64,000 nucleotides of DNA from Kribbibacterium absianum. Its GTDB lineage: Bacteria > Actinomycetota > Coriobacteriia > Coriobacteriales > Atopobiaceae. A program made the translations under genes and the position numbers. How positions within the stretch are numbered: the first letter of the stretch is position 1; each line of letters starts with the position of its first letter. The stretch is from the NCBI RefSeq assembly GCF_030067705.1, contig NZ_JASJEX010000002.1, forward strand, positions 496,001 to 560,000. Reading direction: 5' to 3'. The notes beneath the pieces were generated by a model. The model ran no database searches. It was not told where the DNA came from and saw only the letters and a program-made list of their open reading frames with translations. Below, piece by piece: positions 41,033 to 59,319 of this stretch.

Positions 41033-41070
41033 GGGTGCCTCCCGATAGGGGACTGTGAGCCTATCGGAAA

Positions 41071-41098: not shown

Positions 41099-41146
41099 GC
41101 ACACAATTGTGCACAGCCCGTGCAACGTCTTGGGCGCACCCTGAGC

Positions 41147-41310: not shown

Positions 41311-41405
41311 TCCTGAGGCACCCCTGAAGCACGTAACCTTTGAGCCAGCAAGAGGGGCAGCCGGCGCCCACCTCACTCGTTAGCCAAGCAACAAAGGAGG
41401 ACACC

Positions 41406-41873: not shown

Positions 41874-42154
41874 GCAAGAAGGTCATCGTCGCCTGCGGTG
41901 GCGCCGTCGCCACGTCCACCATCGCCGCCAACAAGGTCCAGGAGCTGGGCAAGGCCAACGGCATCCCCATCGAGATCTGCCAGTGTCGCATCTCCGAGAT
42001 TCCGTCCAACCTGGACGAGGCCGTCCTTATCGTCACCACGGGCAAGTGCAAGCGGGACTTCGGCGTCCCCCTGGTCACCGGGATGCCCTTCATCTCCGGC
42101 GTGGGGGTCGAGAAGACGGAAAGGGCAATCCTTGATGTCCTCAACGCCTCGTAA
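41870..42154 (+). CDS. gatB: galactitol PTS EIIB component
   Basis: 94 residues. Phosphocysteine is Cys9 in VIVACGGAVATST, the P-loop of lactose/galactitol EIIB proteins. CKRDFGVPLVTGMPFISGVG is typical of GatB. Overlaps gatA (ATGA), so translation is coupled. Confidence 0.93.
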   Translation: MSKKVIVACGGAVATSTIAANKVQELGKANGIPIEICQCRISEIPSNLDEAVLIVTTGKCKRDFGVPLVTGMPFISGVGVEKTERAILDVLNAS

Positions 42155-42164
42155 GTCCGCCACC

Positions 42165-42228
42165 CGTTCTTCCTGCTAATGCGACGCTCCAGGTAGATAC
42201 CCCAATCGTCGCTTTAGCAGGAAGAACG
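42165..42228. repeat. facing family A pair
   Basis: Forward 42165-42184 (CTAATGCGAC) and reverse 42208-42228 (CGCTTTAGCAGG), separating gatB from gatC; the loop contains AGGTAGAT. Confidence 0.85.
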
Positions 42229-42272
42229 GAAGCCCTCCCCAGGCAGTCAGTCGCGCCGAGAAAGGCACTCCT

Positions 42273-43670: not shown

Positions 43671-43733
43671 TTCCTGGCTCCTGTCGTGAGGGCGCCCCGT
43701 CAAGGGCGGCCGCCCTTCAAGACGCTCCGCTCC

Positions 43734-43753
43734 CGTTCTTCCTGCTAAAGCGA
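43734..43753 (+). repeat. family A copy, forward
   Basis: CTAAAGCG subtype, in the gap between gatC and gatD. Confidence 0.85.
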
Positions 43754-43827
43754 CGCAACCCATGAGAGAAAAACAGTGAAACCATAAGGACCTGATTCCA
43801 CGTCAGGCCCCCGAGGAGGTCATTGCC

Positions 43828-44877: not shown

Positions 44878-44879
44878 GC

Positions 44880-44902
44880 CCCCCTGGCATTCGTGCCGGG
44901 GT
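44880..44902 (+). terminator. hairpin after gatD
   Basis: CCCCTGGCA TTCG TGCCGGGG, a stable stem with one G-T wobble and a tetraloop, 3 bp after the gatD stop. No T-run, so termination is probable rather than certain. Confidence 0.55.
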
Positions 44903-44957
44903 CTCACGGCCTGACGGGTCGCGCCGCGATCCCGGGCTAAGCTAGGAACCCCCGTCC

Positions 44958-45020
44958 CGTTCTTCCTGTTGTTCCGCGCCCTCGCCTGCGCCCGGTGGGT
45001 CGCACCAGCAGGAAGAACGG
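44958..45020. repeat. facing family A pair
   Basis: Forward 44958-44978 and reverse 44999-45020 in the short leader of the PRD regulator. Confidence 0.85.
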
Positions 45021-45050
45021 GGCCCCGCCGCTCGGAGAGACGAGGCCGCC

Positions 45051-47123
45051 ATGAAGCGTCGCAGCTGGGACATCGCACGTCGGCTCGCTGCGGGCACGCC
45101 CCTCACCCTGGCTCAGCTCGCTCGCGAGAACGGCGTCAGCGAGCGCACCATCCGCAACGACCTCAAGGAGGTGGATCGGGAGCTCGGCCGTCTCGGTCTT
45201 GCTCCCGTCTCCTTCGACCACGGGCGCCTGGTCGCGCCCCCGGGCATTGTGGCCCTGCTCCCGACGCTCGATGGGATGGACGCACAGAGCTACCAATTGG
45301 CACCGGAGGAGCGCGTCGCCGCCGCGGCCGCGCTGCTCGTCTCCGCAACGTCGCCGGTCACGCTGGCCGAGCTCGCCGACCGTCTCGCCGTCAGTCGCAA
45401 CACCGTGATCAACGACCTCGACGCCATCAAGGCCTCCATCGCCGCAGTCGGGCTTGCTGTGGATTCGCTCCCCGGCAAGGGGCTGCTCGTCGTCGGGCTC
45501 GAGTCGCTGCGCCGCACGCTCCTGCTCGACATCGCGCTCGGGGCGCTGCAGCAGGGCGCGCCGCCGCTCGTCTCGTTGCTGCCCTTGGGCGGGGACCCGC
45601 GCATGCTCGCCACCATCGTTACCGAGCAGGAGGGCCCGCACGGCATCCGCCTGACGGACATTTCTTTTGACGAGGTGCTCACCTACCTGCGGGTCCTCGT
45701 CGGGCGCTTGGAGCGCGCCGCCTTCATCGAGGAGCAGCCTCCGGTGGACGGCGCCCCCTTTGCGATGGCGCAGGACGTGCTCCGCTACGTGGCCCAGAGC
45801 TGCCACGTGCCCTGCCCCGAGAGCGAGGTGCGCTTCCTGGCGTGGCTGCTGGCCGGCGCCCGTCGGCTCTCCGGCGACGAGCGGCGCACCGACGTGCCAC
45901 AGATCCAGCTCGTCACCCGCAAGCTGGTGGAGCGCGTGAGCGAGGAGCTGGGCGTCGATCTCAACGACGACTACGAGCTGTTCCAGAACCTCTCGAACCA
46001 CTTGGAGGCCGTGCTGCGCCCCGAGCCGGTGACCTACCCGGACACGGATCTGATCCGCGAGGTGCTGGCAGAGAACGACGAGGTCGTGGCCGCCGTCCGT
46101 AAGCGCGACGCCATCGTGCGGGCCTACGTGGGGCGCCCTCTGGACGAGCTGGAGGAGGGCTACATCGCTCTGCACCTCTGCGCCGCGCTCGAGCGGCGCC
46201 GCCTGCGCTCGGGCACCATGCGCGTGGCGCTCGCCTGCAACGCCGGGGTCGGGACGTCGCAGCTCCTGGCGGCCAAGTTGCGCCGCCACTTCAACTTCTC
46301 CATCGTCGACGAGCTGGGAGCCCATGAGGTGCGCCTCTTGGATCCGAGCGAGGTCTCGCTCGTCATTTCGACGGTGCCCCTCGAGGGCTGCCCGGTGCCG
46401 AGCGTTGTCGTGACGCCGCTTCTGACGGACGAGGACTTCGTGCGCATCGGCGCGGCCATCGACCGCCTGGAGCCGTCGAGCGTTCCCGGAGACGAGACCG
46501 CCCAGCGGCTGTGGCGGCGGTTGGAGCCGGTGGTGAGGAGGCACGTGGAGGCGCCGGACGAGCTCTTGGACGAGCTGCTCCGCGAGCTCCGGGGTTACTT
46601 CCGCGACGCCGAGCGGGGCACGGGCCCGCGCGGTGACTTCGGTGCGCTGTCGCCGTCGCTGCGCCAGCTGCTGCCAGCCTCTCGGATTCGGCTCGACGTG
46701 GCCGCCCGCGACTGGCGTGCGGCCGTGCGCACGGCGGCGGTGCCGCTCTTGGAGGAGGGCCTCATCGAGGGCCGCTACGTGGACGCAATCCTCAAGAACG
46801 TGGACGAGAACGGCCCCTACATCGTGCTGTCGCCGGGGTTCGCGCTGCCGCATGAGGGACTCGACCAGGGCACCGTGGAGGCCGGTCTCACGCTGGTGCG
46901 GCTGTCTGCACCGGTTGAGTTCGGCGCCGACGAGCTGGATCCGGTGCGCTATGTGTGCTGCCTCTCGGCCGTGGATCACTCGACGCACCTCAAGGCGCTG
47001 TTCTCGCTCGTGAACCTCATGAAGGACGAGCGTGCCCGGGCGGCGCTGGACGCGGCCGAGAAGCCCGAGGACGTAGTGGCCGTGCTGAAGGACTGGGAGG
47101 CTCGGGAGCCTGGCGGCGCGTGA
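45051..47123 (+). CDS. MtlR/BglG-type PRD transcriptional activator with EIIB and EIIA domains
   Basis: 690 residues. Two N-terminal helix-turn-helix units (LAQLARENGVSERTIRNDL and LAELADRLAVSRNTVINDL), two PRD domains in the middle, a GatB-like EIIB domain (VALACNAGVGTSQLLAAKL, with the phosphocysteine) at about 400-480 and a C-terminal EIIA domain (LPHEG). Such activators are switched by PTS phosphorylation so that an operon is expressed when its sugar is transported. Directly downstream of gatD, so it probably activates the gat genes. ATG 45051 follows GAGAGACGAGG. Confidence 0.9.
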   Translation: MKRRSWDIARRLAAGTPLTLAQLARENGVSERTIRNDLKEVDRELGRLGLAPVSFDHGRLVAPPGIVALLPTLDGMDAQSYQLAPEERVAAAAALLVSATSPVTLAELADRLAVSRNTVINDLDAIKASIAAVGLAVDSLPGKGLLVVGLESLRRTLLLDIALGALQQGAPPLVSLLPLGGDPRMLATIVTEQEGPHGIRLTDISFDEVLTYLRVLVGRLERAAFIEEQPPVDGAPFAMAQDVLRYVAQSCHVPCPESEVRFLAWLLAGARRLSGDERRTDVPQIQLVTRKLVERVSEELGVDLNDDYELFQNLSNHLEAVLRPEPVTYPDTDLIREVLAENDEVVAAVRKRDAIVRAYVGRPLDELEEGYIALHLCAALERRRLRSGTMRVALACNAGVGTSQLLAAKLRRHFNFSIVDELGAHEVRLLDPSEVSLVISTVPLEGCPVPSVVVTPLLTDEDFVRIGAAIDRLEPSSVPGDETAQRLWRRLEPVVRRHVEAPDELLDELLRELRGYFRDAERGTGPRGDFGALSPSLRQLLPASRIRLDVAARDWRAAVRTAAVPLLEEGLIEGRYVDAILKNVDENGPYIVLSPGFALPHEGLDQGTVEAGLTLVRLSAPVEFGADELDPVRYVCCLSAVDHSTHLKALFSLVNLMKDERARAALDAAEKPEDVVAVLKDWEAREPGGA

Positions 47124-47132
47124 GGTCGCGAC

Positions 47133-47207
47133 CGTTCTTCCTGTCGTTTCGCACGTCCCCGTTCTTCCTGCCAAAATGAGCGCGGTCCGTTCTTCCTGCT
47201 GTTTCGT
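47133..47207 (+). repeat. family A repeats, three forward copies
   Basis: 47133-47152, 47160-47180 and 47188-47207, head-to-tail between the activator and the lacR promoter. Confidence 0.85.
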
Positions 47208-47234
47208 GACGGCTCTGTGACGCTCTGCCCCTCC

Positions 47235-47270
47235 TTGCATTGTTCGAAGATGTGCGTTACTGTGCGAATA
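47235..47270 (+). promoter_or_regulatory. lacR-like promoter with decamer operators
   Basis: TTGCAT (47235-47240), 17-bp spacer, TACTGT (47258-47263). Three head-to-tail decamers starting TGTTCG, TGTGCG and TGTGCG (47241, 47251, 47261) cover it. Two matching decamers lie at the pfkB promoter. Confidence 0.7.
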
Positions 47271-47290
47271 GTCAAGAACGAGGAGGCGCG

Positions 47291-48055
47291 ATGCTCAAGA
47301 ATGAGCGCCAGGACGCAATCGTCACGCTGGTGGACGACCAGGGCGCCGTCACCGTTAAGGACGTGGCGCAGACGCTCGGGGTCTCCGAGATGACCATTCG
47401 TCGCGACCTGGAGGAGCTGGCCACGCAGGGCCGCGTGCTGCGCGTGCACGGCGGGGCCCGCAGCGTGGCGGGCGAGCGTGACCATCTGGTGCCGCGGGAG
47501 TTCACGCACTCCGAGAAGCACCTGCTGCACGAAGCGGCAAAGGCGCAGGTGGGCGCGCGCGCTGCGGAGCTCGTCGCGGCCGGGGACACCGTGTTCCTCG
47601 GCGCCGGCACCACCACGGAGCAGGTGGCGTTGTCGCTGCTCGACGTCCCATTGCGCGTGGTCACCAACAGCCTGTCGGTGTTCGATATTGTGCGCCAACG
47701 GCCAAACATCGACGTGTGCCTGATCGGGGGCACCTATCGGCCGTCGACAGACGCGTTCGTGGGCTCCATTGCCGAGCAGTCTGTCGCCACGCTCGGCGTG
47801 GACAAGGCGTTCATCGGGGCGAACGGCGTGTTGGCCGAGGGCGTGAGCACGTCCAACCCCGAGGAGGGCCGGTTCCAGGCGCTGGTGCTGGACTCGAGCG
47901 CCGAGCGGTACCTCGTGACGGACGCGAGCAAGCTGGGGCGCCGGGACTTCTTCACGTTCTACGAGCTGGGGTCGTTCGACGGCCTGGTGACGGATCCGAG
48001 CATCACCGAGGAGCAACGGGAGGAGCTGTCCGTCTCGACCCGGGTCCTCACCTGA
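47291..48055 (+). CDS. DeoR family repressor, LacR-like
   Basis: 254 residues. KDVAQTLGVSEMTIRRDLEEL is the recognition helix region, VHGGARSV the hinge, and FLGAGTTTEQVALSLLDV and LIGGTYRPSTDAFVGSIAEQ the sensor domain. It sits directly before lacA and lacB and its promoter shares operator repeats with pfkB, so it probably represses the tagatose 6-phosphate genes and itself, with a sugar phosphate as inducer. ATG 47291 follows GAGGAGGCGCG. Confidence 0.9.
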   Translation: MLKNERQDAIVTLVDDQGAVTVKDVAQTLGVSEMTIRRDLEELATQGRVLRVHGGARSVAGERDHLVPREFTHSEKHLLHEAAKAQVGARAAELVAAGDTVFLGAGTTTEQVALSLLDVPLRVVTNSLSVFDIVRQRPNIDVCLIGGTYRPSTDAFVGSIAEQSVATLGVDKAFIGANGVLAEGVSTSNPEEGRFQALVLDSSAERYLVTDASKLGRRDFFTFYELGSFDGLVTDPSITEEQREELSVSTRVLT

Positions 48056-48063: not shown

Positions 48064-48159
48064 CGTTCTACCTGCTCATGCGAGAGACCCTTCTCGTTTT
48101 TCCTGCCAAAGCGCCGCCGCAGGTAGATGGCCAAAAGTACGGAACAGCATGAAAAACGG
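48064..48159. repeat. family A cluster, three copies
   Basis: Forward 48064-48084 and 48095-48113, reverse 48139-48159 (CATGAAAAACGG), between lacR and lacA. Confidence 0.8.
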
Positions 48160-48192
48160 GAGCCAGTCGGGGCCCCGGGAAAGGGAGCATCC

Positions 48193-48621
48193 ATGCGCAT
48201 CATCATCGGCTCGGACGCGGGCGGCATGTCGCTCAAGGAGGTCGTGAAGGCCCACCTCGTCGAGTCCGGCCACAACGTCGTCGACCTCTCCGTCGAGCCG
48301 GCTGCGGACTTTGTGGACTCCGCCGTCGCGGTGGCCCAGGAGCTGCTCGCCGACCCGGACGCCCTCGGCTTCGCGTTCGACGAGTACGGCGCCGGCAGCT
48401 ACATGGCCGCCTGCAAGGTGAAGGGCATCGTGGCGTGCGAGTGCTCCGACGAGCGGAGCGCCTTCATGACGCGCCAGCACAACAACGCGCGCCTCATCAC
48501 GATGGGCGCGGGCGTGACCGGCCCTGTCATCGCGAAGGGCATCTGCGACCAGTTCCTGCAGGAGGCCTACGCCGGTGGCCGCCACCAGGTTCGTGTGGAC
48601 ATGCTCAACAAGATGGCCTAG
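48193..48621 (+). CDS. lacA: galactose-6-phosphate isomerase subunit LacA
   Basis: 142 residues. RpiB/LacA fold: MRIIIGSDAGGMSLKEVV at the start and FDEYGAGSYMAACKVKGIVA in the middle. With LacB it forms the isomerase that turns galactose 6-phosphate into tagatose 6-phosphate. ATG 48193 follows GAAAGGGAG. lacB follows 85 bp later with a family A pair between. Confidence 0.93.
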   Translation: MRIIIGSDAGGMSLKEVVKAHLVESGHNVVDLSVEPAADFVDSAVAVAQELLADPDALGFAFDEYGAGSYMAACKVKGIVACECSDERSAFMTRQHNNARLITMGAGVTGPVIAKGICDQFLQEAYAGGRHQVRVDMLNKMA

Positions 48622-48706: not shown

Positions 48707-49225
48707 ATGAAGATCGCCATTGGCTGCGACCACATCGTCACCGACGAAAAGATGAAACTGGCAGACCACCTCAAGGCGCAAGGCTACGAGGTCATCGACT
48801 GTGGCACGTACGATCACGCACGCACCCATTACCCAATTTATGGCAAGCGCGTGGCCGAGGCCGTGACCTCCGGCGAGGCCGATGCCGGCGTTGTGATGTG
48901 CGGCACCGGCGTGGGTATCACGAACTCCGTCAACAAGGTGCCGGGCGCCCGCTGCTGCCTGGTGCGCGATATGGCGACGGCCGTCTACGCCCGCGAGAAC
49001 CTGGCCGCGAACGTCTGCGGCTTTGGCGGCAAGATCTGCGGCGAGTTCTTGCTGCACGACATCGTGGACGCGTTCCTTAACGCCGAGTATCAGTCCACGC
49101 CCGAGAACGACGCGATGGTCGCGAAGATCGACGCCGTGTGGCAGGGGGACGCCGAGGCGCAGGCGAGCCCGGACTTCTTCGACGAGTTCCTCGTCAAATG
49201 GGACGAGGGCTACTACCACGACTAG
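48707..49225 (+). CDS. lacB: galactose-6-phosphate isomerase subunit LacB
   Basis: 172 residues. [36 protein letters not shown], and [16 protein letters not shown] are LacB/RpiB motifs; the catalytic cysteine is in MCGTG. Length fits LacB. ATG 48707 follows TAAGGAGCAC. Together with LacA, the PfkB kinase and a class II aldolase it completes the tagatose pathway. Confidence 0.95.
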
Positions 49226-49353: not shown

Positions 49354-49662
49354 TTACAACACGAGCTTCGCGTAATCCTGGGATCCGTGGAACACGTGCG
49401 CGACAAAGATGCAGTCCGGTTTGATCGTGTACAGCACTACGTAGCGGCCCACCGTGAACGCGCGGTAACCGAGGGCCGCCAACTCCGGCAGGATGCTCAC
49501 ATCAAAGAGTTCGGGGAACGCGCAGACCTGCTCCATCGTCTCGTCAATGCCATCGGCAAGGTCGTCGAACACAGAGGGGCCGCCCGTCCGCTCATCGAGG
49601 TAGCTTTGAATCTGCTCCAGTTCGAGCGCCGCGCTGTCGGCCAGAACCCACGGCTTAGCCAT
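49354..49662 (-). CDS. RelE/ParE family toxin
   Basis: 102 residues. AALELEQIQSYLDERTGG, LFDVSILPELAALGYRAFTVGRYVVLYTI and the late VFHGSQDY are typical of the RelE/ParE fold (the F-x-VGRY-VLY strand). Its start overlaps the antitoxin stop by 8 nt. Probably an mRNA interferase or gyrase poison held in check by the Phd/YefM protein. Confidence 0.9.
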   Translation of the reverse strand: MAKPWVLADSAALELEQIQSYLDERTGGPSVFDDLADGIDETMEQVCAFPELFDVSILPELAALGYRAFTVGRYVVLYTIKPDCIFVAHVFHGSQDYAKLVL

Positions 49663-49921
49663 GACGGTTCTTCAGGCGCGCCAGGAGCGCCTTGCCGTTG
49701 ACCGTCGCTCCGCGCTCGTACTCGTCCTCGGCGAGCAACACGCGAGAGAGGAGCCGCGCCTTGGCCGCCTCCTGCAGCAGCGCATCGTAGTCCTCGGGTC
49801 GCATGGTGACCATGGCCTCACGCCCGTTGTTCGTGACGAACACGGGCCCGTCGCTGTGCTCAACCAGTTCCTGGAACTTTGCGGTGTCTTTCATCTCGCG
49901 CACGGGTGCCATGGTGGGCAT
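49655..49921 (-). CDS. Phd/YefM family antitoxin
   Basis: 88 residues from ATG 49921, which follows AAAGGAGGCCCC; the longer ORF is rejected. APVREMKDTAKFQELVEHSDGPVFVTNNGREAMVTM is the Phd/YefM DNA-binding domain; the C-terminal helix binds the toxin. The pair is bracketed by the two family C palindromes. Confidence 0.92.
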   Translation of the reverse strand: MPTMAPVREMKDTAKFQELVEHSDGPVFVTNNGREAMVTMRPEDYDALLQEAAKARLLSRVLLAEDEYERGATVNGKALLARLKNRHG

Positions 49922-49966
49922 GGGGGCCTCCTTTGGGTGTGGCCCCATTGTACCCCGTTGGGCTGC

Positions 49967-50047
49967 TCGTTCTGCCGGCCAAAACGAGCACAACGAGCAA
50001 AGCACCTGCCAGAAGGGGCTTTGCTCGTTTTGGCATGAAAAACGGGA
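49967..50047. repeat. family C palindrome, copy 2
   Basis: Same structure and orientation as copy 1 (CGTTCTGCCGGCCAAAACG to GGCATGAAAAACGG), 697 bp away. Ends 4 bp from the stop of the next minus-strand gene. Confidence 0.85.
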
Positions 50048-50051
50048 GCGG

Positions 50052-50654
50052 TCACTCGGTGCGTCGGCGCAGCGCCAGACCGCCCATGCCCGCTGCGGCG
50101 CCCGCCAGAACCAGCGGGGCAACGCTGACAGTGGGGTCGCTCGTGTCGGGCGTGGTCGAGGACGTCGTTGTCGCGCTGCTCGATGTGGACGCGAGCAGCG
50201 AGCTGAGTGACAGCGCGCTCGTGCCGGTCGTGCTCGTGTCCGCTGCCAGCGCCGAGCTCATCAGCAGCGACGAGAACAGGCCCGAGACGTCGCCCGAGAA
50301 CAGGCTCTTGAGCATGGCCTGGAACGCCTCGATGAACGCGCTGCTGCCGAAGCTGAGCGCGCTGCCGAGCAGGTTGTCGAGGGTCTTGAGGATGCCGGTC
50401 TCGATGATTTCACAGGTGATATCGGCCGTTGCGGGCTTCTCGGTGTCCGTGGTGTCGCCGCCGGTCTCGTCGTCGGCCGGCTCGTCGGTCTCCGTGTCGG
50501 AGCCTTGCGTGTCGTCGCCGGGGACCTCCTCGGCGGGCGTGTCGTCCGTGGCCTCGTTCGCCCACGCCGGAACCGGCGCAATGGCGAGCGCGGCGACCAC
50601 TGCCACGAGCAGCGCGAGCAGGCACCAACGGTGACGAGAAGACGGTGCGACCAT
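50052..50654 (-). CDS. secreted surface protein with divergent sorting tail
   Basis: 200 residues from ATG 50654 (GAAAGGACGCCC upstream; the longer ORF is repeat translation). Signal peptide CLLALLVAVVAALAIAPVPAWA, then an acidic Thr/Glu/Asp linker, a helical middle with one cysteine, a Ser/Thr-rich stretch, and the tail TPDTSDPTVSVAPLVLAG ending RRRTE. This has the layout of a sortase signal (compare MPETGDP in the broken protein at 59.4 kb) but with Ser for Gly. I do not recognise the family. Confidence 0.75.
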   Translation of the reverse strand: MVAPSSRHRWCLLALLVAVVAALAIAPVPAWANEATDDTPAEEVPGDDTQGSDTETDEPADDETGGDTTDTEKPATADITCEIIETGILKTLDNLLGSALSFGSSAFIEAFQAMLKSLFSGDVSGLFSSLLMSSALAADTSTTGTSALSLSSLLASTSSSATTTSSTTPDTSDPTVSVAPLVLAGAAAGMGGLALRRRTE

Positions 50655-50699: not shown

Positions 50700-50935
50700 C
50701 TTTTTCATGCTAATGCGAGAGGCCTGAAACCGTCCGATAATTTCGACCCGGATCCTTCCGTTCTGCATGCTGTTTCGAGCACAGGCGCGTTGGCCTGGGG
50801 TCTCGCAGCAGCAGGAAGAACGGCGCCTCTCGCAACAGCAGGGAGAACGGCCCGCCTCTCGCAACAGCAGGAAGAACGGGCCTCCTCTCGCAATGGCATG
50901 TAGAACCGTTCCCTCTCGCAGCGGCAGGAAAAACG
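50700..50935. repeat. family A cluster, seven copies
   Basis: Forward 50700-50720 and 50759-50779, reverse 50802-50822, 50827-50850, 50856-50879, 50886-50907 and 50913-50935. This is the densest array in the window and fills the 286-bp gap. Confidence 0.85.
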
Positions 50936-50940
50936 ACCTG

Positions 50941-51705
50941 CTACTCAATCACCGGCGCGTACTGCTCCACGGCCGCCTTCGCCTCCGCCGAGAACCCCGA
51001 CCCCGCCACCACCGCGTCCACGTCCGCCAGGTCGTAGAAGCTGTAGAAGTCCCGGCGGTCGAACTTGCTCGGGTCCGCCAGCAGGTACCGCTGGCTCGCC
51101 TGGTCCAGCGCAATTCGTTGCACGTCGCCCGCCTCGGTCGTCGACGTGTACGCATGGCCGCCAGCAATCCCGTTCACCCCGATGAATGCCTTGCTCACGC
51201 CGAACCGCTCCATTGTCGCCTCGGCTACCGAACCCACCACGGCGCCCATGCGCCGCCGGAAGAACCCGCCCAGCAGGTAGAGGTCCACGTCCTCGCGCTG
51301 CTCCAGGAGACTCAGCACCGGCAGGCTGTTCGTGATCACGCGTAGGTGCACGGGCGGCAGCTGCGCGGCCATGGCCTCGACGGTGGTTCCCGTGCCGAGA
51401 AACAGCGTGTCGTTCGCCTCGACCAGCGTCGCCGCCAGCGCCCCGATGGCCTGCTTCTCTGCTACATGCAGGACGCTCTTCTCTCGCTGGCTGCGCTCAC
51501 GCTGCAGCACCGGGCTCTGCCGCGGCTTCAACGATTGAGCGCCGCCGCGCACGCGGGCCACGCGCCCTTCCTCTGCCAGGTCGTCCAGGTCACGCCGTGC
51601 GGTCATCTCCGAGACGCCCAACCGCTCCGCCGCCTCTTTAATGGAGAGGTTCTGCAGCTCGTCGGTGAGTTCGACCATCGCGTCCTGTCGCTCTGCCTTT
51701 AGCAT
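50941..51705 (-). CDS. DeoR family transcriptional regulator (AgaR-like position)
   Basis: 254 residues. KEAAERLGVSEMTARRDLDDL is the DNA-binding helix, VRGGAQSL the hinge, FLGTGTTVEAMAAQL and LLGGFFRRRMGAVVGSVAE the sensor. ATG 51705 follows AAGGAGGCCCC. It is divergent from the mannose-family PTS and sulfatase genes and is their likely repressor. Two AAACATTCC repeats lie in the shared promoter region. Confidence 0.9.
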   Translation of the reverse strand: MLKAERQDAMVELTDELQNLSIKEAAERLGVSEMTARRDLDDLAEEGRVARVRGGAQSLKPRQSPVLQRERSQREKSVLHVAEKQAIGALAATLVEANDTLFLGTGTTVEAMAAQLPPVHLRVITNSLPVLSLLEQREDVDLYLLGGFFRRRMGAVVGSVAEATMERFGVSKAFIGVNGIAGGHAYTSTTEAGDVQRIALDQASQRYLLADPSKFDRRDFYSFYDLADVDAVVAGSGFSAEAKAAVEQYAPVIE

Positions 51706-51742
51706 GGGGCCTCCTTGACGGTGGATGTGACTTCACCCTAAC

Positions 51743-51762
51743 AAACATTCCCAAAACATTCC
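51743..51762. promoter_or_regulatory. direct repeats in the deoR/PTS divergent gap
   Basis: AAACATTCC at 51743-51751 and 51754-51762, 11 bp apart, one helical turn. The rest of the 331-bp gap holds GGTACACT at 51976-51983 (possible PTS -10) and no repeat-family copies. Confidence 0.5.
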
Positions 51763-52036
51763 AAGATTAGCGAGCATGCTCTGGGAGCTTCTCGCAAAAT
51801 CTCACAATGAAGGGACAAGAGGGCAACGGCGGACCCGAGGCCGGCCGGTCGGCTTCCGCCAAGGGAATAACTCCGGATCATGGTGCCGTTAGGCTCCCTG
51901 TATCGACCGTTCGCCGAGCCCGGTCCGCCGACGTGGCCTCCTTTTTCTCCTCTCGCCTAATTGAAAGAAGTTGTTGGTACACTTCTCACAGAAAGTAACA
52001 AGACGTGACAAAGAGTCGCAATGAAGGGAGTCGGCC

Positions 52037-52468
52037 ATGCGAACCGGAGTCATCCTTGCGAGCCACGGGGAGTTCGCGCGCGCGGCGCTCGGCAGCGCGG
52101 AGATGGTGGCCGGTCCCCAACCGGACATCTGCGCGCTCGCGCTGCAGGCGGACACTTCGCTCGAGGACTTCGAAGCGGCGTTCCGCGACGCCTATGACCA
52201 GCTGTCCAGCCAGTGCGACCTGGTCGTCTGCCTCTGCGACATCCTCGGCGGTACGCCGTTCAACGTCGTCGCCCGCGTCAAGGCGGCCGGCCTCGAGCTG
52301 CTCGCCTACACCGGCCTCTCGATGCCGGTGCTGCTGGAACTGCTCATCACGCGCGGCCAGTACAGCACGGAGTGGGAGCTGGCCAACGTCATCGAGGCGG
52401 CGGGCGCGTCCGCGCTCCAGCGCATCGACATGGCACCGGTGCCCACGGAAGACGGCGAGGACCTCTGA
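52037..52468 (+). CDS. mannose-family PTS EIIA
   Basis: 143 residues. Phosphohistidine is His10 in VILASHGEFARA; CDILGGTPFNVV is the second conserved motif. ATG 52037 follows GAAGGGAG. First gene of a four-gene mannose/fructose/sorbose-class PTS. The sugar is not fixed by sequence; the sulfatase downstream points to a sulfated or amino sugar. Confidence 0.92.
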   Translation: MRTGVILASHGEFARAALGSAEMVAGPQPDICALALQADTSLEDFEAAFRDAYDQLSSQCDLVVCLCDILGGTPFNVVARVKAAGLELLAYTGLSMPVLLELLITRGQYSTEWELANVIEAAGASALQRIDMAPVPTEDGEDL

Positions 52469-52503
52469 GCCTCCCCTCACATCAGCCCTAAAGGACGAGT
52501 TGC

Positions 52504-52518
52504 GTCGCAGGAAGAACG
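52504..52518 (-). repeat. half family A copy
   Basis: GTCGCAGGAAGAACG then AAACCGCAGGTAG, the extension seen beside other copies. Only the conserved core side is present. Confidence 0.6.
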
Positions 52519-52552
52519 AAACCGCAGGTAGCGTTAGCAGAAAGGAACCACC

Positions 52553-53035
52553 ATGTCGGTCAAGCTCGTGGACATCGACGACCGCCTCATCCACGGCCAG
52601 CTCGCCACCACCTGGATCCCGGACTACCGCATCGAGTCCGTGATCATCGTCGACGACAAAGTCGCCAACGACCCGATCCAAAAGTCCGTCGCCGGCCTCG
52701 CGGTGCCCAAGGTCAAGGTCAACGTCTTTGGCGTCGACAAGTTCATTGACGTCCTCACCAAGACCACCATCAAGAAAGTGACCATGGTCCTTTTCACCAA
52801 CCCGGTGGACGCCCTCAGGCTCCACGAGAACGGCCTCCCTTTCAACTACCTCAACGTCAGCGGCATGCGCTTCAACGACCAGCGCCGCCGCCTGCACAAG
52901 AACATGTCGGTCACCGAGGACGAGAAGGAGGCGTTGGAGCAGCTCATCGAGATGGGCGTGGAGTGCTGGATGCAGCCCACGACCCGCGACCCCAAGGTCC
53001 GCGTCTCCGAGCTGCTCGAGAACTACGAGGCATAA
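52553..53035 (+). CDS. mannose-family PTS EIIB
   Basis: 160 residues. VDIDDRLIHGQLATTW carries the phosphohistidine His14. The fold continues with VIIVDDKVANDP and a late NYLNVSGMRF. It receives phosphate from EIIA and phosphorylates the incoming sugar. Confidence 0.93.
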   Translation: MSVKLVDIDDRLIHGQLATTWIPDYRIESVIIVDDKVANDPIQKSVAGLAVPKVKVNVFGVDKFIDVLTKTTIKKVTMVLFTNPVDALRLHENGLPFNYLNVSGMRFNDQRRRLHKNMSVTEDEKEALEQLIEMGVECWMQPTTRDPKVRVSELLENYEA

Positions 53036-53072
53036 CCCCCGGGGCGCCGCGCCCCACCTGTGAGGAGCATCC

Positions 53073-53885
53073 ATGCTGCAAGCGCTCTTGCTCGCCATCT
53101 GGGCGGGCCTCTGCACCTGGGACCAGTACGGTCCCCACCTGGGCTTTCGTAAACCGTTGCTCGCGTCCGTCGGCGTCGGCGTGATCATGGGCGACATGAC
53201 CACCGCGATCATCATCGGCGCGACGATGGAGCTCATGTGGCTCGGCGTCAACAACATCGGCGCCTATGTCCCGCCCGACGTCATCTCCGGAACCATCGTG
53301 GGCGCCGCGCTCGGCATCATGAGCGGCGGCGACGTCGCGAGTGACACCGCCCTCGCTGTTGCCATCGGCATCCCCACGGCCACGCTCGTCCAGCAGCTCA
53401 ACATCCTCGTGATGACCACCAACATCACCTGGCTGCACAAGGCGGACAAAGTGGCCCTGACCGGCGACTTCGATGCCGTGAACCCGTGGTTCTGGTGCGG
53501 CGCCTGGTCCTTCTTCGCCACGCGCGCCATCCCCACGTTCATCGCCTGCGGCATCGGCTCCTTTGTGATCGAGGACATCATGAACTTCCTCGAGAACTCG
53601 GTGCCCTGGGTTCTCTCTGGCTTCTCCACTGCGGGCGGCATGATGCCCGCTGTCGGCCTCGCGATGCTCCTCACGATGATGCTCAAGGGCAACATGTGGA
53701 TCTTCCTCATCGCCGGCTTTGTGATGAGCGCCTACCTCGGCGTTCCGACCATGGGCATCGCGCTTGTGGCCGTCGCGGTGGCCGGTTTCTACGACTACGT
53801 CTCCGAGAGCCAGAAGAAGGCCGCCGCGCAGCCGGCCCTGGAGGCATCTCCATCCGCAGACGATGACGAGGAGTACGATCTCTGA
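53073..53885 (+). CDS. mannose-family PTS EIIC
   Basis: 270 residues, polytopic. AGLCTWDQYGPHLGF, GATMELMWLGVNNIGAYVPPD and the G-x-ALG repeats are EIIC-Man signatures. ATG 53073 follows GTGAGGAG. The EIID start overlaps its stop by one base. Confidence 0.94.
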   Translation: MLQALLLAIWAGLCTWDQYGPHLGFRKPLLASVGVGVIMGDMTTAIIIGATMELMWLGVNNIGAYVPPDVISGTIVGAALGIMSGGDVASDTALAVAIGIPTATLVQQLNILVMTTNITWLHKADKVALTGDFDAVNPWFWCGAWSFFATRAIPTFIACGIGSFVIEDIMNFLENSVPWVLSGFSTAGGMMPAVGLAMLLTMMLKGNMWIFLIAGFVMSAYLGVPTMGIALVAVAVAGFYDYVSESQKKAAAQPALEASPSADDDEEYDL

Positions 53886-54715
53886 TGGCCAAGGTTTCCA
53901 AGCACGCCCTCAACAAGGTGCTGCTCCGCACCCAGGGATGCCAGTTCGCTCACAACTACGAGCGCATGCAGAGCCTCTCGCTCACCTACTGCTTCGCGCC
54001 GGTGCTGAAAGAGTTGTACGGCGACGCCCCCAAAGAGGACCGCGTCCGCGCCATGCAGCGCCACCTGGAGTACTTCAACACGCACCCGCTCGCGATCCCT
54101 TTCATCCTCGGCATCGCCGCGGCGCTCGAGGAGACCACCGACGAGGACCAGAAAGAGACCGTCGTCGCCGTCAAGACCTCGCTGATGGGCCCCTTCGCCG
54201 GCCTTGGCGACTCGCTCCTCAACCTCACCTGGACGCCCATCTGCGGGTCCATCGGCGCGTCGATGTGCATCAACAACGGCAGCCTCATCGGCCCCCTCGT
54301 GATGCTCATCATGATCAACGCCCTCTACTGGCCCATCAAGATCTACGGCCTCTACGGCGGCTACTCCAAGGGCATGGAGGTCATCGAGAAGTTCGGCGTG
54401 CAGGTCTTCGACCGCCTCAGCTCCCTTGCTAATGTGCTCGGTGTGATGGTGGTGGGCGGCCTGATCCCCACGACCGTCAAGCTCGCCTGCGCCATCGAGA
54501 TTCCGCTGGGGGAGGGCGACCCGCTCGTGATCCAGGACCAGCTGGACAAGGTGTTGCCCTATGCGCTGCCCGTGCTGCTGACGTTCATCTGCTACCGCCT
54601 GCTCAAGAAGGGCCAGGGCAAGAACTCCGCGCAGCTGATCGTCGGCTTGATCGTGTTCGCGCTGGTCTTCGCCTGCCTGGGCTATTACTTCCCGGGCCTC
54701 AAGATCTTCGCCTAG
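53885..54715 (+). CDS. mannose-family PTS EIID
   Basis: 276 residues. NYERMQSLSLTYCFAPVL, FNTHPLAIPFILGIAAALEE, SLMGPFAGLGDSLLNLTW are EIID-Man motifs; C-terminal hydrophobic segments follow. With EIIC it forms the membrane channel. A 10-bp perfect hairpin follows the stop. Confidence 0.95.
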   Translation: MAKVSKHALNKVLLRTQGCQFAHNYERMQSLSLTYCFAPVLKELYGDAPKEDRVRAMQRHLEYFNTHPLAIPFILGIAAALEETTDEDQKETVVAVKTSLMGPFAGLGDSLLNLTWTPICGSIGASMCINNGSLIGPLVMLIMINALYWPIKIYGLYGGYSKGMEVIEKFGVQVFDRLSSLANVLGVMVVGGLIPTTVKLACAIEIPLGEGDPLVIQDQLDKVLPYALPVLLTFICYRLLKKGQGKNSAQLIVGLIVFALVFACLGYYFPGLKIFA

Positions 54716-54722
54716 GCTCTCG

Positions 54723-54757
54723 TGGCCGGGGCGCTCGCGTTCGCGGAGCCCCGGCCA
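54723..54757 (+). terminator. hairpin after the PTS operon
   Basis: TGGCCGGGGC (54723-54732) pairs perfectly with GCCCCGGCCA (54748-54757), 15-nt loop. No T-run; it may attenuate read-through into the sulfatase gene. Confidence 0.55.
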
Positions 54758-54780
54758 TGACGCCCGATGGCATCAGAGTT

Positions 54781-54801
54781 CGTTCTTCCTGCTATTCCGA
54801 C
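54781..54801 (+). repeat. family A copy, forward
   Basis: CTATTCCGACA form, immediately before the sulfatase ribosome site. Confidence 0.85.
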
Positions 54802-54812
54802 AAGGATCCCTT

Positions 54813-56345
54813 ATGCGCACCATCCTCGTTCTCATGGACACCCTGCGCCGCGACGTGCTCTCCTGCTACAACCTCCAGTCGCCCGTCGTCACGCCGAACC
54901 TCGACGCCTTCGCGCGCGAGTCATGCGTGTTCGACGAGCACTGGGTGGGTAGCGCTCCCTGCATGCCCGCTCGCCGGGACATCCTCACCGGTCGGCTGAA
55001 CTTCCTCGAGCGCGGTTGGGGCCCCATCGAGCCCTTCGACGTCACATTGCCGCAGGTGCTCCGTGAGCACGGCTACTTCTGCCACATCACCACTGACCAC
55101 TGCCACTACCTGCGTACTGGCGGCGAGGGCTACCTGCAGCAGTTCAACACCTGGGACTACCACCGCGGCCAGGAGGGCGACCCCTGGGTGAGCGCCATCG
55201 ACGACCCCTCGAACATGCCGCGCGATTACTACGGCCGCGTGCGCCGGCAGTACCAGCTCAACCGCACGCAATGGCCAGAAGAAGCGCAGATGCCGTCGCC
55301 GCTCACGTTCCAGAGCGCCTGCGACTGGCTCGACCGCAACGGTCAGGCCGAGGACTACTTCCTGATGGTGGAGGCCTTCGACCCGCACGAGCCCTTCGAC
55401 GTGCCCGACGAGTACCTGAGCCTCTACGACGGGCCCGAGCTCGACCGTGACTACTACGAGATCCCCTGCTACGCCCGCCAGAGCGAGAGCGACGTGACCG
55501 ACGACGCGGTGGCCTACCTCAGGCGTCGCTACCACGCGCTGGTCACCATGACGGACCGGTGGTTCGGGCGTCTGATGGACAAGGTGCGCGAACTGGGCAT
55601 TTGGGACGACGTGCTGCTCGTGGCCACGACGGACCACGGCTACTTCCTGGGCGAGCGCGACTTCCTCGGCAAGAACTTCATGCCGCTCTACAACGAGCTG
55701 GCGCACCTGCCGCTGTTGGTTCGCTTCCCGGGCGGCGCGCGAGCCGGACGGCATGCCCAGCAGCTCACGCAGAACATCGACCTGATGCCGACGGTGTTGG
55801 ACTTTGCGGGCATTGAGATTCCGGACGATGTGGCGGGCGTCTCGCTGAAGCCGCTGGCGACGGACGCGGACGCGCCCACCAAGGACTACGCGCTCTTTGG
55901 CTACCACGCGATGGACGTGAACATCACCGACGGTCGCTACGTGTACTTCCGCGCGCCGGTGCCGGGCAACCAGCCGTGCTTTGAGTACGCGGCGATGCCG
56001 ACGACGATCCGGCGCGTGCTGGGCACCGACAATCCGGGCGCCATCGAGTGCGGGCGGTTCCTGCCGCGCACGGACTACCCGGTGTTCAAGGTCCCGGTGA
56101 CGAAGCCCGGGATTATCGACCAGAGCGACGATCCGCTGCGGGAGGTCTCGAAGACGCGGCTCTTCGACCTGGCCGTGGACTATGGAGAGCTGGACGACCT
56201 AGCCGGAGGCAACGACCCGGCCGAGGACCGTATGGTGGGCCTGCTGCTTCGCGCCCTGGACGAGAACGACGCGCCGCCCGAGCAATACGAGCGCCTCGGC
56301 CTCGCCGCCGCCCGTTCTGCCTGCCAAAGCGACGCCCGGCCATGA
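54813..56345 (+). CDS. cysteine-type sulfatase, cytosolic
   Basis: 510 residues. MRTILVLMDTLRRDVLSCY gives the metal aspartates; the formylglycine motif is C50-M-P-A-R within SAPCMPARRDILTGR. TTDHGYFLGERDF is the second metal-site region. Anaerobic maturases convert this Cys to formylglycine, and one is encoded directly downstream with a 4-nt overlap. There is no signal peptide, so it acts inside the cell, probably on a sugar brought in by the PTS just upstream. Family A bases (56313-56332) form its last codons. Confidence 0.9.
   Translation: MRTILVLMDTLRRDVLSCYNLQSPVVTPNLDAFARESCVFDEHWVGSAPCMPARRDILTGRLNFLERGWGPIEPFDVTLPQVLREHGYFCHITTDHCHYLRTGGEGYLQQFNTWDYHRGQEGDPWVSAIDDPSNMPRDYYGRVRRQYQLNRTQWPEEAQMPSPLTFQSACDWLDRNGQAEDYFLMVEAFDPHEPFDVPDEYLSLYDGPELDRDYYEIPCYARQSESDVTDDAVAYLRRRYHALVTMTDRWFGRLMDKVRELGIWDDVLLVATTDHGYFLGERDFLGKNFMPLYNELAHLPLLVRFPGGARAGRHAQQLTQNIDLMPTVLDFAGIEIPDDVAGVSLKPLATDADAPTKDYALFGYHAMDVNITDGRYVYFRAPVPGNQPCFEYAAMPTTIRRVLGTDNPGAIECGRFLPRTDYPVFKVPVTKPGIIDQSDDPLREVSKTRLFDLAVDYGELDDLAGGNDPAEDRMVGLLLRALDENDAPPEQYERLGLAAARSACQSDARP
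56313..56332 (+). repeat. family A copy at the sulfatase 3' end
   Basis: CGTTCTGCCTGCCAAAGCGA, one base from consensus. Read as SACQSD in the last ten sulfatase residues and lying where the maturase ribosome site should be. Confidence 0.7.
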
Positions 56346-57421
56346 GGCGCGTCAGCTTCCTGGTCAAGCCTGCCTCGTCGGCCTGCTCGATGGCCTGCGC
56401 CTACTGCTTCTACCGCGACGTGGCCCAGGGCCGCGCGCCCCAGGTCATGAGCGACGCCGTGGCGGACGCCCTCATCGACCGCGCCCTTGCCCTGGCCCCG
56501 GACGCCTCCATCGCCTTCGACTTCCAGGGCGGCGAGCCCACGCTGGCCGGGTTGCCCTTCTTTGAGCGCTTCGTCGCCCGCGTGGCCGCGCAGCGCGACC
56601 GGCAGCATGTCTCGTTCGCGATCCAGACCAACGGCCTCGCCCTCGACGACGCCTGGTGCGCGTTTCTGGCCGAGCACCGCTTCCTGGTGGGCGTCTCGCT
56701 CGACGGGTACCGCGAGCTCCACGACAGGCTGCGGCCGGACCTGCACGGCGCCGGCACCTTCGATTGCGTCGCGGCCGCCATCGCGCGCCTGCGCACCTAC
56801 GGTCTAGAACCAAGCGTCCTCATGGTCCTTTCGCAGCCGTTGGCTGCGCACCCGCAAAAGGTGTGGCGCACCATCGAGCGCCTCGACCTGCGCTATGTCC
56901 AGTTCATCCCGTGCCTGGGGCCGCTGGACGGGGCGGCCGGTCGCCACGCGCTCACGCCCGATGCGTTCGCGCGCTTCTACCTCACACTGCTGGGCCTCTG
57001 GGAGCGCGGCGGCCGCACGGTCCACGTGGGCCTCTTTGACGATCTGCTCGCGCTGACGTCCGGCCGACACCCGCAGACCTGCGGGCTGCTCGGTCGGTGC
57101 GCGCCGCAGTTTGTCGTGGAGGGGGACGGCTCGGTGTACCCGTGCGACTTCTATGCGCGCGAGCCGTGGCGGCTCGGGAACGTGACGGAGCGATCACTTG
57201 AGGAGCTGGCAGTGTCGCCGGTGCTCCGAGAGTTTCTGATGCGCCCGCGTTCCCGGTGCGCCGAGTGTTCCTCCTGTCGTTTCGAGAGCCTCTGCCACGG
57301 CAACTGCCCGCGCATGGCCTCGGCGTATTTTGACGAGCGGGCCTGCGGTTATCGTCGGTTCTTGGAACAGGCGTGGCCGCGCCTGGCCACTCTCCGGAAA
57401 GGAGCCCCCGCATGGATGTGA
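56342..57421 (+). CDS. anaerobic sulfatase-maturating radical SAM enzyme
   Basis: 359 residues. Radical SAM cysteines C15, C19 and C22 in SSACSMACAYCFYRD; FDFQGGEPTLAG and QTNGLALDD are anSME motifs. The C-terminal SPASM region binds two further clusters (CGLLGRCAPQF, VYPCDFYA, CAECSSCRFESLCHGNCPR). It converts the sulfatase Cys50 to formylglycine. ATG 56342 overlaps the sulfatase stop (ATGA). The SSCRFES segment coincides with a near-consensus family A copy (57266-57288). Confidence 0.93.
   Translation: MRRVSFLVKPASSACSMACAYCFYRDVAQGRAPQVMSDAVADALIDRALALAPDASIAFDFQGGEPTLAGLPFFERFVARVAAQRDRQHVSFAIQTNGLALDDAWCAFLAEHRFLVGVSLDGYRELHDRLRPDLHGAGTFDCVAAAIARLRTYGLEPSVLMVLSQPLAAHPQKVWRTIERLDLRYVQFIPCLGPLDGAAGRHALTPDAFARFYLTLLGLWERGGRTVHVGLFDDLLALTSGRHPQTCGLLGRCAPQFVVEGDGSVYPCDFYAREPWRLGNVTERSLEELAVSPVLREFLMRPRSRCAECSSCRFESLCHGNCPRMASAYFDERACGYRRFLEQAWPRLATLRKGAPAWM
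57266..57288 (+). repeat. possible family A copy in the maturase SPASM domain
   Basis: TGTTCCTCCTGTCGTTTCGA, two bases from gap copies such as 47133. It encodes SSCRFES including a cluster cysteine; chance cannot be excluded. Confidence 0.4.
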
Positions 57422-58020
57422 AGATGGTCGGCGCCACGCTCGTGGTCCTGGCGGTGCTCGGGTTCCTGTTCTTCGAGTACGAGAAGCGCTCGCTCACCCG
57501 GCGGCTCGAGCGCCTTATGGAGGCCCAGGACTTCCGCGGCTGCCTCGCGTTGCTGGCTGAGCCGGTCACCCGTACGGTCTTTCCGCGCTACAACCGGCGG
57601 TTCCTCGAGCTTTCCTGCCATCTGGGGCTCGACAACCTGGCCGAGGCCGAGCGCCTCTGCAGCGAGATGCTCGCCATGCGCCTCACGCCCGAGCAGCGCA
57701 CGGTCACGCTGGCCAAGGCCTTCAATGTTGCAGTAGAGCGGGAGGACCGAGAGACGGCGGCTCGGCGGCTGGCCCAGATTGAGGAGCTGGATGACGGGGC
57801 TCTGGCCCAGGAATCCCGCGAGACGTTCGACGTGCTGCTCAATGGCTCGTCGGCCTACGTGGAGTCCATGAAGCGGCGGCTCCGTAACGCCGACCAGGGC
57901 ACCGCCGCGCGCCTGTGCTACCTGCTGTCCGTGCAGTACGCCAATCGCGGGGATGACACCGCGGCCGAGCAGTACCTGGATCGCGCCGGTTCCTGCTTCG
58001 ACGCGCCGGTGGAAGGCTAG
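57412..58020 (+). CDS. membrane-anchored TPR-like protein, function unknown
   Basis: 202 residues. One N-terminal membrane helix (VGATLVVLAVLGFLFFEY) and then a helical region with TPR-like periodicity (RLMEAQDFRGCLALLAE, HLGLDNLAEAERLCSEMLA, EDRETAARRLAQIEELDD). ATG 57412 follows GAAAGGAG and overlaps the maturase stop by 10 nt, so it belongs to the sulfatase operon. Role unknown; perhaps a scaffold. Confidence 0.8.
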   Translation: MDVKMVGATLVVLAVLGFLFFEYEKRSLTRRLERLMEAQDFRGCLALLAEPVTRTVFPRYNRRFLELSCHLGLDNLAEAERLCSEMLAMRLTPEQRTVTLAKAFNVAVEREDRETAARRLAQIEELDDGALAQESRETFDVLLNGSSAYVESMKRRLRNADQGTAARLCYLLSVQYANRGDDTAAEQYLDRAGSCFDAPVEG

Positions 58021-58022
58021 TT

Positions 58023-58808
58023 GTGGAGTGGGTTGCCTTCCTTGTGAGCTTTGGCGCGTCGACCATCGGCGCCATCTGCGGCGTCGGCGGCGGCATCGTG
58101 ATCAAGCCGGTGATGGACGCACTCGGCGCGCTGAGCGTCGCGCAGGTGAACTTCCTGGCCGGTTGCACGGTGCTTGCGATGACGGCGTACTCGGTGGTGC
58201 GCGCTTTGGCAGAAAAAACAATGGAGGGCGACCTGGGCCGAGACGTTCCGCTCGGCGTGGGAGCGACCATTGGGGGAATGGCGGGGAAAGCGCTGCTCGG
58301 GGCGCTGGCGACGGCCGTGGGTCGACCAGAGCTGGTAGGCGCAGTGCAGGCGGCCGTGCTCGCGGTGGTCACGCTCGGGACGCTGCTTTATACCGTGTTC
58401 AAAAACCGCATTACCGGCTATTGCGTGCAAGGGACGGTGCCGTGCGCGCTGATTGGGCTCGGCCTTGGGGTGTGTTCCTCGTTCCTCGGCATCGGCGGCG
58501 GCCCGATCAACCTGGTGGCGCTCTACTTCTTCTTCTCCCTCGACACCAAGCCGGCCGCGACCAGCTCGCTGTTCATCATCCTCCTGTCGCAATCTGCGGC
58601 CACGCTGTGCACGCTGGCAAGCGGCGCGCCCGACGTGCCGGCGCTGGTTCTTGTGCTCATGGTGGCGGGCGGCGTCATCGGCGGCATGGTGGGGCGCCGC
58701 GTCAACCGGGGTCTCGGTGGAGCCACGGTCGACAAGCTGTTCATCGGGCTCATGGCGGTGATCATCGCCATCTGCCTAGGCAATCTGGCGAAGTTCGCCT
58801 GGCTGTGA
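58023..58808 (+). CDS. TauE/SafE (TSUP) family anion exporter
   Basis: 261 residues, eight hydrophobic segments in two halves, each with the G-x-GGG motif (GAICGVGGGIVIKPV and SSFLGIGGGPINLVALYFFF). TSUP proteins move sulfite, sulfoacetate and related sulfur anions out of cells. GTG 58023 follows GGAAGG and is 2 nt after the preceding stop. In this operon it would remove sulfate or sulfite released by the sulfatase; that role is inferred. Confidence 0.88.
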   Translation: MEWVAFLVSFGASTIGAICGVGGGIVIKPVMDALGALSVAQVNFLAGCTVLAMTAYSVVRALAEKTMEGDLGRDVPLGVGATIGGMAGKALLGALATAVGRPELVGAVQAAVLAVVTLGTLLYTVFKNRITGYCVQGTVPCALIGLGLGVCSSFLGIGGGPINLVALYFFFSLDTKPAATSSLFIILLSQSAATLCTLASGAPDVPALVLVLMVAGGVIGGMVGRRVNRGLGGATVDKLFIGLMAVIIAICLGNLAKFAWL

Positions 58809-58833
58809 GGCGGGCCCTCGAGAAAGGATCGTT

Positions 58834-59319
58834 GTGGACGCTGGGACGTTGGGCTCGTTTCTCCCCGCGGTGTGGCTGCTGGCCGTTGGGGTCGCCGGGT
58901 ACGCGGGATGGCTGGGTGTGAGCCAGCGCAGCGGGATTTCCCGAGGGGTGCCCCGGCGGCGTGGCACGTGGGTGGTGGCCGCGCTGCTGGTGCTCGCTGG
59001 GGCAGCCAACTTCTGGTGGCACGACCACACGTGGAGCGGCCTTGCAGTGGCGGCCGTGCTGGCGGCGTTCGGGCTGTTCTGGGCGGTGCAGCGCAACGGG
59101 GTCGGGCGCGGTGGGCTGTATGTTGACGGCGTCCGGTACCCCTGGGGACGCGTGGCCGATGTGAGCATCACGGGCGGCGGGCACCGTGCGGTGGTGCACT
59201 TCTCGGCGGGCAAGGCCGAGAAGGACCTGGCGCTGCCGGGCACCTCCCGAGAAGCGGTGCAGCAGCTAGTGGATGAGATGCAGCGGGCCTATGGCGCCAC
59301 TCCGGCCGAGGAGCGCTGA
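58834..59319 (+). CDS. small membrane protein, function unknown
   Basis: 161 residues from GTG 58834 (GAAAGGATC upstream). Three hydrophobic helices in the first 90 residues, then a soluble end with GLYVDGVRYPWGRVADVSI and a short beta-rich domain. Last gene of the sulfatase operon by strand and spacing (25 bp). Reminiscent of small bacterial PH-like or DUF5673-type membrane proteins, but I do not assign it. Confidence 0.7.
   Translation: MDAGTLGSFLPAVWLLAVGVAGYAGWLGVSQRSGISRGVPRRRGTWVVAALLVLAGAANFWWHDHTWSGLAVAAVLAAFGLFWAVQRNGVGRGGLYVDGVRYPWGRVADVSITGGGHRAVVHFSAGKAEKDLALPGTSREAVQQLVDEMQRAYGATPAEER

Follow-up and report, generated by a model that had tools for sequence, protein, structure and literature searches.

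A mannose-family phosphotransferase system joined to a predicted cytosolic sulfatase in Kribbibacterium absianum, and its possible link to galactose breakdown

The desulfation of mucin sugars is viewed mainly as the extracellular or periplasmic work of Bacteroides and Akkermansia. A gene block of the actinobacterium Kribbibacterium absianum raises the question whether sulfate can also be released inside the cell, and if so from which sugar. The block occupies positions 50941-59319 of a stretch of 64,000 nucleotides (contig NZ_JASJEX010000002.1, positions 496,001 to 560,000; the whole stretch is called the window below), and it combines a phosphotransferase system (PTS) with a sulfatase, its maturase and a predicted anion exporter. 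A first-pass annotation had proposed that a sulfated monosaccharide or disaccharide, for example from mucin or chondroitin, is imported by the PTS and desulfated in the cytoplasm, and that the anion is then pumped out. Our analysis draws on gene content, motifs, synteny, co-occurrence and linkage to the galactose-6-phosphate isomerase genes (LacAB). The predicted coupling of PTS import, internal desulfation and anion export is well supported by synteny, co-occurrence and the lack of a signal peptide. The proposed substrate has shifted: a disaccharide or chondroitin fragment is disfavoured, and the LacAB linkage makes sulfates of N-acetylgalactosamine (GalNAc) or N-acetylglucosamine (GlcNAc) less favoured than sulfated galactose. 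That the operon handles sulfated galactose, by PTS import, internal desulfation, sulfate export and a LacAB/tagatose route, is in our judgement about an even call.

The block contains the following genes:

50941-51705, minus strand: DeoR-family regulator, divergent from the operon (PF00455 153.6 bits, PF08220 62.5 bits)
52037-52468, plus strand: PTS EIIA, mannose family (PF03610 62.7 bits; phospho-His in ASHG)
52553-53035, plus strand: PTS EIIB, mannose/sorbose family (PF03830 140 bits; RLIHGQ motif)
53073-53885, plus strand: PTS EIIC (PF03609 228 bits; nearest NCBIfam model AgaW, under cut-off)
53885-54715, plus strand: PTS EIID (PF03613 268 bits)
54813-56345, plus strand: Cys-type sulfatase with the formylglycine (FGly) site C50-MPAR (PF00884 114.6 bits, SGSH_C 59.8 bits)
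56342-57421, plus strand: anSME-type radical-SAM sulfatase maturase (TIGR03942 297 bits, cut-off 349; CX3CX2C)
57412-58020, plus strand: TPR-like protein with one N-terminal membrane helix (one hydrophobic segment; homologues in relatives)
58023-58808, plus strand: TSUP/TauE-family predicted anion exporter (PF01925 85 bits; seven hydrophobic segments in a simple scan)
58834-59319, plus strand: small membrane protein (two hydrophobic segments; weak homologues in the relatives' loci L028, L102 and L033)

All parts named in the first-pass annotation, from the divergent DeoR and the EIIA-EIIB-EIIC-EIID genes to the sulfatase, anSME and TSUP, were borne out by Pfam and motif matches: DeoRC, EIIA-man, PTSIIB_sorb, EII-Sor, EIID-AGA, Sulfatase, Radical_SAM, SPASM and TauE all score above the Pfam gathering score, and the catalytic motifs of EIIA, EIIB, sulfatase and maturase are intact. 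With four EII subunits over their Pfam cut-offs and the phospho-His motifs in place, the PTS belongs to the mannose family; its scores stay below the Aga equivalog cut-offs for GalNAc/galactosamine transporters (AgaF 71/130, AgaW 174/300, AgaE 150/500 bits, score/cut-off). The earlier description as one strand with overlaps holds for the orientation, since all genes except DeoR are on the plus strand, and for three junctions, EIIC/EIID (1 bp), sulfatase/anSME (4 bp, ATGA, 56342-56345) and anSME/TPR-like (10 bp), whereas gaps separate EIIA from EIIB (84 bp), EIIB from EIIC (37 bp) and EIID from the sulfatase (97 bp). The TPR-like membrane protein does have its membrane helix, but the TPR label is weakly backed: the window protein has no Pfam match, and a weak TPR_6 match (E = 4e-4) occurs only on a read-through open reading frame (ORF) in L022. 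Homologues that are 33-41% identical occupy the same position in most actinobacterial relatives, where the divergent DeoR gene is likewise kept. An intergenic alignment gave no clear DeoR operator common to the window and g33, a genus of relatives, and it revealed an AACA-rich conserved block within g33. The block end at 59319 includes the small membrane protein, which had been left unnamed and is probably the final operon gene.

Where does the sulfatase act? It is a type I (formylglycine) enzyme of family S1, as indicated by C50-MPAR and a PF00884 score far over the cut-off of 25. In all 17 orthologues, the protein begins at the strand that carries the metal-binding Asp, typically MRT[IV]LVLMDT. 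No signal peptide was found in any orthologue: nothing resembling one is encoded just upstream, and in several of them stop codons close that frame. As the catalytic strand starts at residue 1, a signal peptide would not fit in front of it. Thus, the earlier claim that the sulfatase lacks one is confirmed, and the enzyme is predicted to be cytosolic. The maturase carries the radical SAM CX3CX2C motif and a SPASM domain; TIGR03942 was the best match of an NCBIfam scan, below its equivalog cut-off. The gene is present in a single copy in the window's genome and once per genome in all 14 genomes examined. Two proteins of the window's genome, which is 99.8% complete, exceed the sulfatase cut-off. 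We infer that the second is an LtaS-type enzyme, and there is probably one FGly-type sulfatase. An AlphaFold model of the sulfatase computed from a six-sequence alignment reached a mean pLDDT of 39, too low to be of use.

The arrangement is conserved well beyond the window. Sulfatase orthologues, defined at a minimum of 60% identity, were found in 17 genomes: G000, G018, eight g33 genomes, three from a different family within the same order (G1089, G1011, G1157) and four of Erysipelotrichia type (Candidatus Merdibacter, Dielma, Massilimicrobiota and G357). The contigs of the relatives were scanned with one query sequence, not an alignment, and the relatives are under-sampled. EIIABCD lies directly upstream of the sulfatase in 17 of 17 genomes, which belong to two phyla, the Actinomycetota and the Bacillota; the eight g33 genomes are one genus and count as about one vote. 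Moreover, close EIIC and close sulfatase have an identical distribution: among 140 genomes of the family to which the window belongs, 10 have both and no other has either. The shared order and this distribution argue that the block is more than a chance neighbourhood. In most relatives a second, different sulfatase of PRK13759 type, SULF2, joins the cluster; it is absent from the clusters of G000 and G018. In G086, G088 and Dielma, a paralogous sulfatase (50-53% identical) stands beside a mannose-family PTS that differs from that of the block, likely a sister system for another substrate; loci with this paralogue, its own mannose-family PTS and a DeoR gene are L021:3966-8857, L028:3608-8495 and L076:8816-13762. 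A few kb away from the main cluster, several g33 genomes carry a third pair, in which SULF3 is joined by a distinct mannose-family PTS (L022:16137-19899, L027:16167-19900, L028:53-2422). More distant sulfatases (about 35-40% identical) adjoin other importers: in Rhizobium an ABC sugar transporter, together with FGE; in Streptomyces an MFS transporter, again with FGE; and in Firmicutes PTS permeases of Gat type and of Lac/Glc type, in one case with a GH1 gene. Since related sulfatases thus adjoin ABC, MFS and several PTS types, importer-coupled cytosolic desulfation seems to be a recurrent design. A plasmid of Subdoligranulum variabile (OY725881.1, L072) carries several sulfatases, an anSME and a TSUP exporter in one region.

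The identity of the sugar is suggested by genes outside the block:

40100-41203, minus strand: PfkB-type hexose-phosphate kinase, candidate tagatose-6-phosphate kinase (TIGR03168 309 bits, cut-off 216; TIGR01231 lacC 215 bits, under cut-off)
47285-48055, plus strand: second DeoR-family regulator, upstream of LacAB (best NCBIfam matches GlpR/AgaR, under cut-offs)
48127-48621, plus strand: LacA, galactose-6-phosphate isomerase subunit (NF006380 200 bits, cut-off 164; TIGR01118 181.4 bits, cut-off 181.1)
48707-49225, plus strand: LacB, galactose-6-phosphate isomerase subunit (NF006381 276 bits, cut-off 234; under the TIGR01119 cut-off)

Both subunits exceed an NCBIfam equivalog cut-off, LacB being over one model and under two others. 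The pair lies 2.8 kb upstream of the block in the window and about 10 kb upstream in G018, it adjoins the cluster divergently in eight g33 genomes, and it is found 7 kb upstream in Merdibacter, where GatZ follows downstream. (A 525-aa ORF of no family in L033, 15105-16682, plus strand, was discarded; it is antisense to GatZ.) In G1089, the genes form one operon in the order EIIABCD-SULF-anSME-SULF2-TPR-TSUP-LacA-LacB-kinase-lacC-like kinase with no strand change. The first of these two kinases resembles the protein behind the aldolase of Massilimicrobiota, the lacC-like one reaches 358 bits (cut-off 410), and a GatY/KbaY-like class II aldolase lies beyond one DeoR gene. Massilimicrobiota is an exception to the linkage, with LacAB on another contig together with GatZ and a class II aldolase. 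A close LacB is present in 25 of 140 genomes of the window's family, including all 10 that have the PTS-sulfatase pair. The same partners are arranged differently in separate lineages and are therefore hard to ascribe to one inherited ancestral order alone, and the recurrent presence of LacAB and of genes for tagatose phosphates nearby makes sulfated galactose the favoured sugar.

How might such a pathway work? Mannose-family PTS normally phosphorylate the O6 of the sugar during entry, which makes 6-sulfated monosaccharides unlikely. Since the LacAB path in addition needs galactose-6-phosphate, the imported galactose would have to be sulfated elsewhere than at O6. The sugar, freed by other organisms or by secreted glycosidases, would most likely be 3-O-sulfogalactose from mucin, followed by 4-O-sulfogalactose; the former comes first because two Bacteroides sulfatases that act on mucin, BT1636 and BT4683, have it as their target (PMC10154620). 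The EIIABCD proteins would import it and phosphorylate O6 to give galactose-sulfate 6-phosphate. The co-translated anSME would oxidise Cys50 of the sulfatase to formylglycine, and the cytosolic sulfatase would then remove the sulfate, leaving galactose-6-phosphate. LacAB, the PfkB-type kinase and a class II aldolase could channel this product through the tagatose-6-phosphate path into glycolysis, and the TSUP protein would export the freed sulfate. Phosphorylation is placed before desulfation because the PTS couples it to entry; this order, the substrate, the sulfation site, the exported ion and the regulation by DeoR are what we infer from the genes and motifs. More tentatively, we suggest that galactose-sulfate 6-phosphate is the true substrate of the sulfatase, that phosphorylation by the PTS both precedes and is required for desulfation, and that Gram-positive gut bacteria without exported sulfatases thereby gain direct access to the sulfated galactose of mucin.

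Several observations weigh against sulfated galactose. Dielma, which has the PTS and the sulfatase, shows no close LacAB match, no LacAB was found within about 7-10 kb of the cluster in G1011 and G1157, and the LacD family has no match in 13 genomes. In the window itself, LacAB may instead serve the adjoining galactitol-type PTS (EIIC-GAT, small EIIA-/EIIB-like genes), which with a GatD-like dehydrogenase and a PRD regulator-EIIA fusion occupies 41340-48055 ahead of DeoR-LacA-LacB. Nor did a clear signature of a sugar-phosphate pocket emerge: H43, E66, R101 and R282, residues specific to the PTS-linked sulfatase clades, looked suggestive at first comparison; these clades, however, are a single branch, Arg101 is also found in BT1918 and SULF2, and at position 282 a Streptomyces enzyme linked to an MFS transporter has Arg as well, while one of the PTS-linked orthologues has His. 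Finally, the closest solved full-length homologue of the sulfatase is BT1918 (PDB 7OZ8; S1_46, 3S-GlcNAc; 119.8 bits by profile), and in G1089 and several g33 genomes the cluster has genes for NagA and an AgaS-family/SIS isomerase in its vicinity, which would suit N-acetylgalactosamine. These last two points speak for a reading that we consider possible, if rather unlikely: the same machinery would handle a sulfated N-acetylhexosamine (GalNAc-4S, GalNAc-3S or GlcNAc-3S) from mucin or chondroitin, and the resulting GalNAc-6-P or GlcNAc-6-P would then be used via NagA and AgaS or NagB. EIIA and EIIC also match the Aga (GalNAc) models best, under their cut-offs. NagA is present in 14 of 14 genomes, which is uninformative because the gene is near universal, and the NagA that exceeds the cut-off in the genome of the window is encoded on a different contig. 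The recurrent neighbour, co-operonic in G1089, is LacAB, which acts on galactose-6-phosphate.

Import of a sulfated disaccharide, derived for instance from chondroitin, keratan or N-acetyllactosamine, with later cleavage inside the cell appears improbable to us. Streptococcal PTS do import an unsaturated hyaluronan disaccharide (PMC9067506), in G018 the cluster is adjoined by a GH35 beta-galactosidase gene and a further mannose-family PTS, and a more distant Dielma locus joins a related sulfatase type, a PTS EIIC and a GH1 enzyme. The block, however, contains no glycosidase, GH88 or uronate gene, and none was seen to be conserved in the clusters of the annotated relatives, in which some neighbouring ORFs are unannotated; a chondroitin disaccharide in particular is unlikely because no glycosidase, lyase or uronate gene is in the block. 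A 987-aa ORF of Merdibacter (L033:1042-4005) with a PL8 N-terminal and a transglutaminase-like domain was dismissed as a sign of glycosaminoglycan degradation: its 3' end runs antisense over SULF2, and the gene model is doubtful. Still less probable is that PTS and sulfatase share a DeoR regulon and serve unrelated substrates, with the sulfatase acting as a scavenger of sulfate esters, whether for sulfur or for detoxification. Promiscuity can occur in this sulfatase superfamily and would fit such a role, but the strict co-occurrence, the fixed EIIABCD-sulfatase order in 17 genomes and the presence in the same genomes of paralogous pairs that involve other types of PTS argue against it, and the TSUP exporter speaks against sulfur scavenging.

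Two further features of the region deserve mention. A gene pair that, judged from sequence, encodes a ParE/RelE-like toxin and an antitoxin-like protein lies at 49354-50122, between LacB and the DeoR gene of the block. Moreover, the window contains a dispersed short repeat, CCGTTCTTCCTGCT[AG]TT.CGA, with 60 matches at up to 3 mismatches (0.02 expected); CGTTCTTCCTGC occurs in 58 exact copies, about one per kb and mostly intergenic. Sites include 54783-54802, right before the sulfatase start, 50801-50933 and 29522-29541. The repeat was absent from the loci fetched for G018, g33 and G1089.

If such a conserved PTS-coupled route is real, sulfate release would move inside the cell, and Gram-positive bacteria of gut type that lack exported sulfatases could feed on sulfated sugars freed by others. 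EIIABCD-sulfatase-anSME-TSUP together with LacAB would then be a gene signature by which such users can be found.

Among known systems, BT1918 of Bacteroides thetaiotaomicron is the closest solved homologue by profile, yet it is distant in sequence and is part of a mucin system of Bacteroides that is exported; its specificity is not transferable to the window sulfatase. The sulfatase clusters of Bifidobacterium breve UCC2003 are not known to involve a PTS and rely on another transporter type. As reported for this strain (Egan et al. 2016, via the account in PMC7326374), an intracellular sulfatase acts on a cross-fed, mucin-derived sulfated monosaccharide, much as we propose here, but on GlcNAc-6-sulfate. 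The streptococcal cluster for hyaluronan and other glycosaminoglycans resembles the block in that an EIIABCD-type PTS imports a host glycan fragment; in contrast, it has a lyase, an unsaturated glucuronyl hydrolase and uronate genes (PMC9067506), none of which was found in the window block. With the LacABCD pathway the operon shares linked LacAB and a lacC-like kinase, whereas a class II aldolase (GatY/KbaY type) takes the place of LacD, and the block contains no phospho-beta-galactosidase.

The nearest precedent is the Streptococcus pneumoniae island SPH1922-1930, in which a Lac-type PTS, a sulfatase, a sulfatase-modifying enzyme and a TauE/SafE exporter also stand together; it gave no sulfatase activity on 4-methylumbelliferyl sulfate, no substrate was found for it, and its authors left the link between PTS and sulfatase open (PMC3302838, PMC3283741). 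The pneumococcal island has a Lac-family PTS with two EIIC, a ROK/MarR regulator and a ComA-like enzyme; the window block has neither a Lac-family PTS nor a ROK regulator and instead combines a mannose-family EIIABCD with DeoR and LacAB. No description of the EIIABCD-sulfatase-LacAB combination was found in the literature searched, a search that left most subscription journals outside. Thus, the general design of a PTS with a sulfatase is already known, with its function unproven, whereas the mannose-family version and the link to galactose breakdown appear to be undescribed. With the window operon and its relatives at hand, the question raised by the pneumococcal island becomes directly testable.

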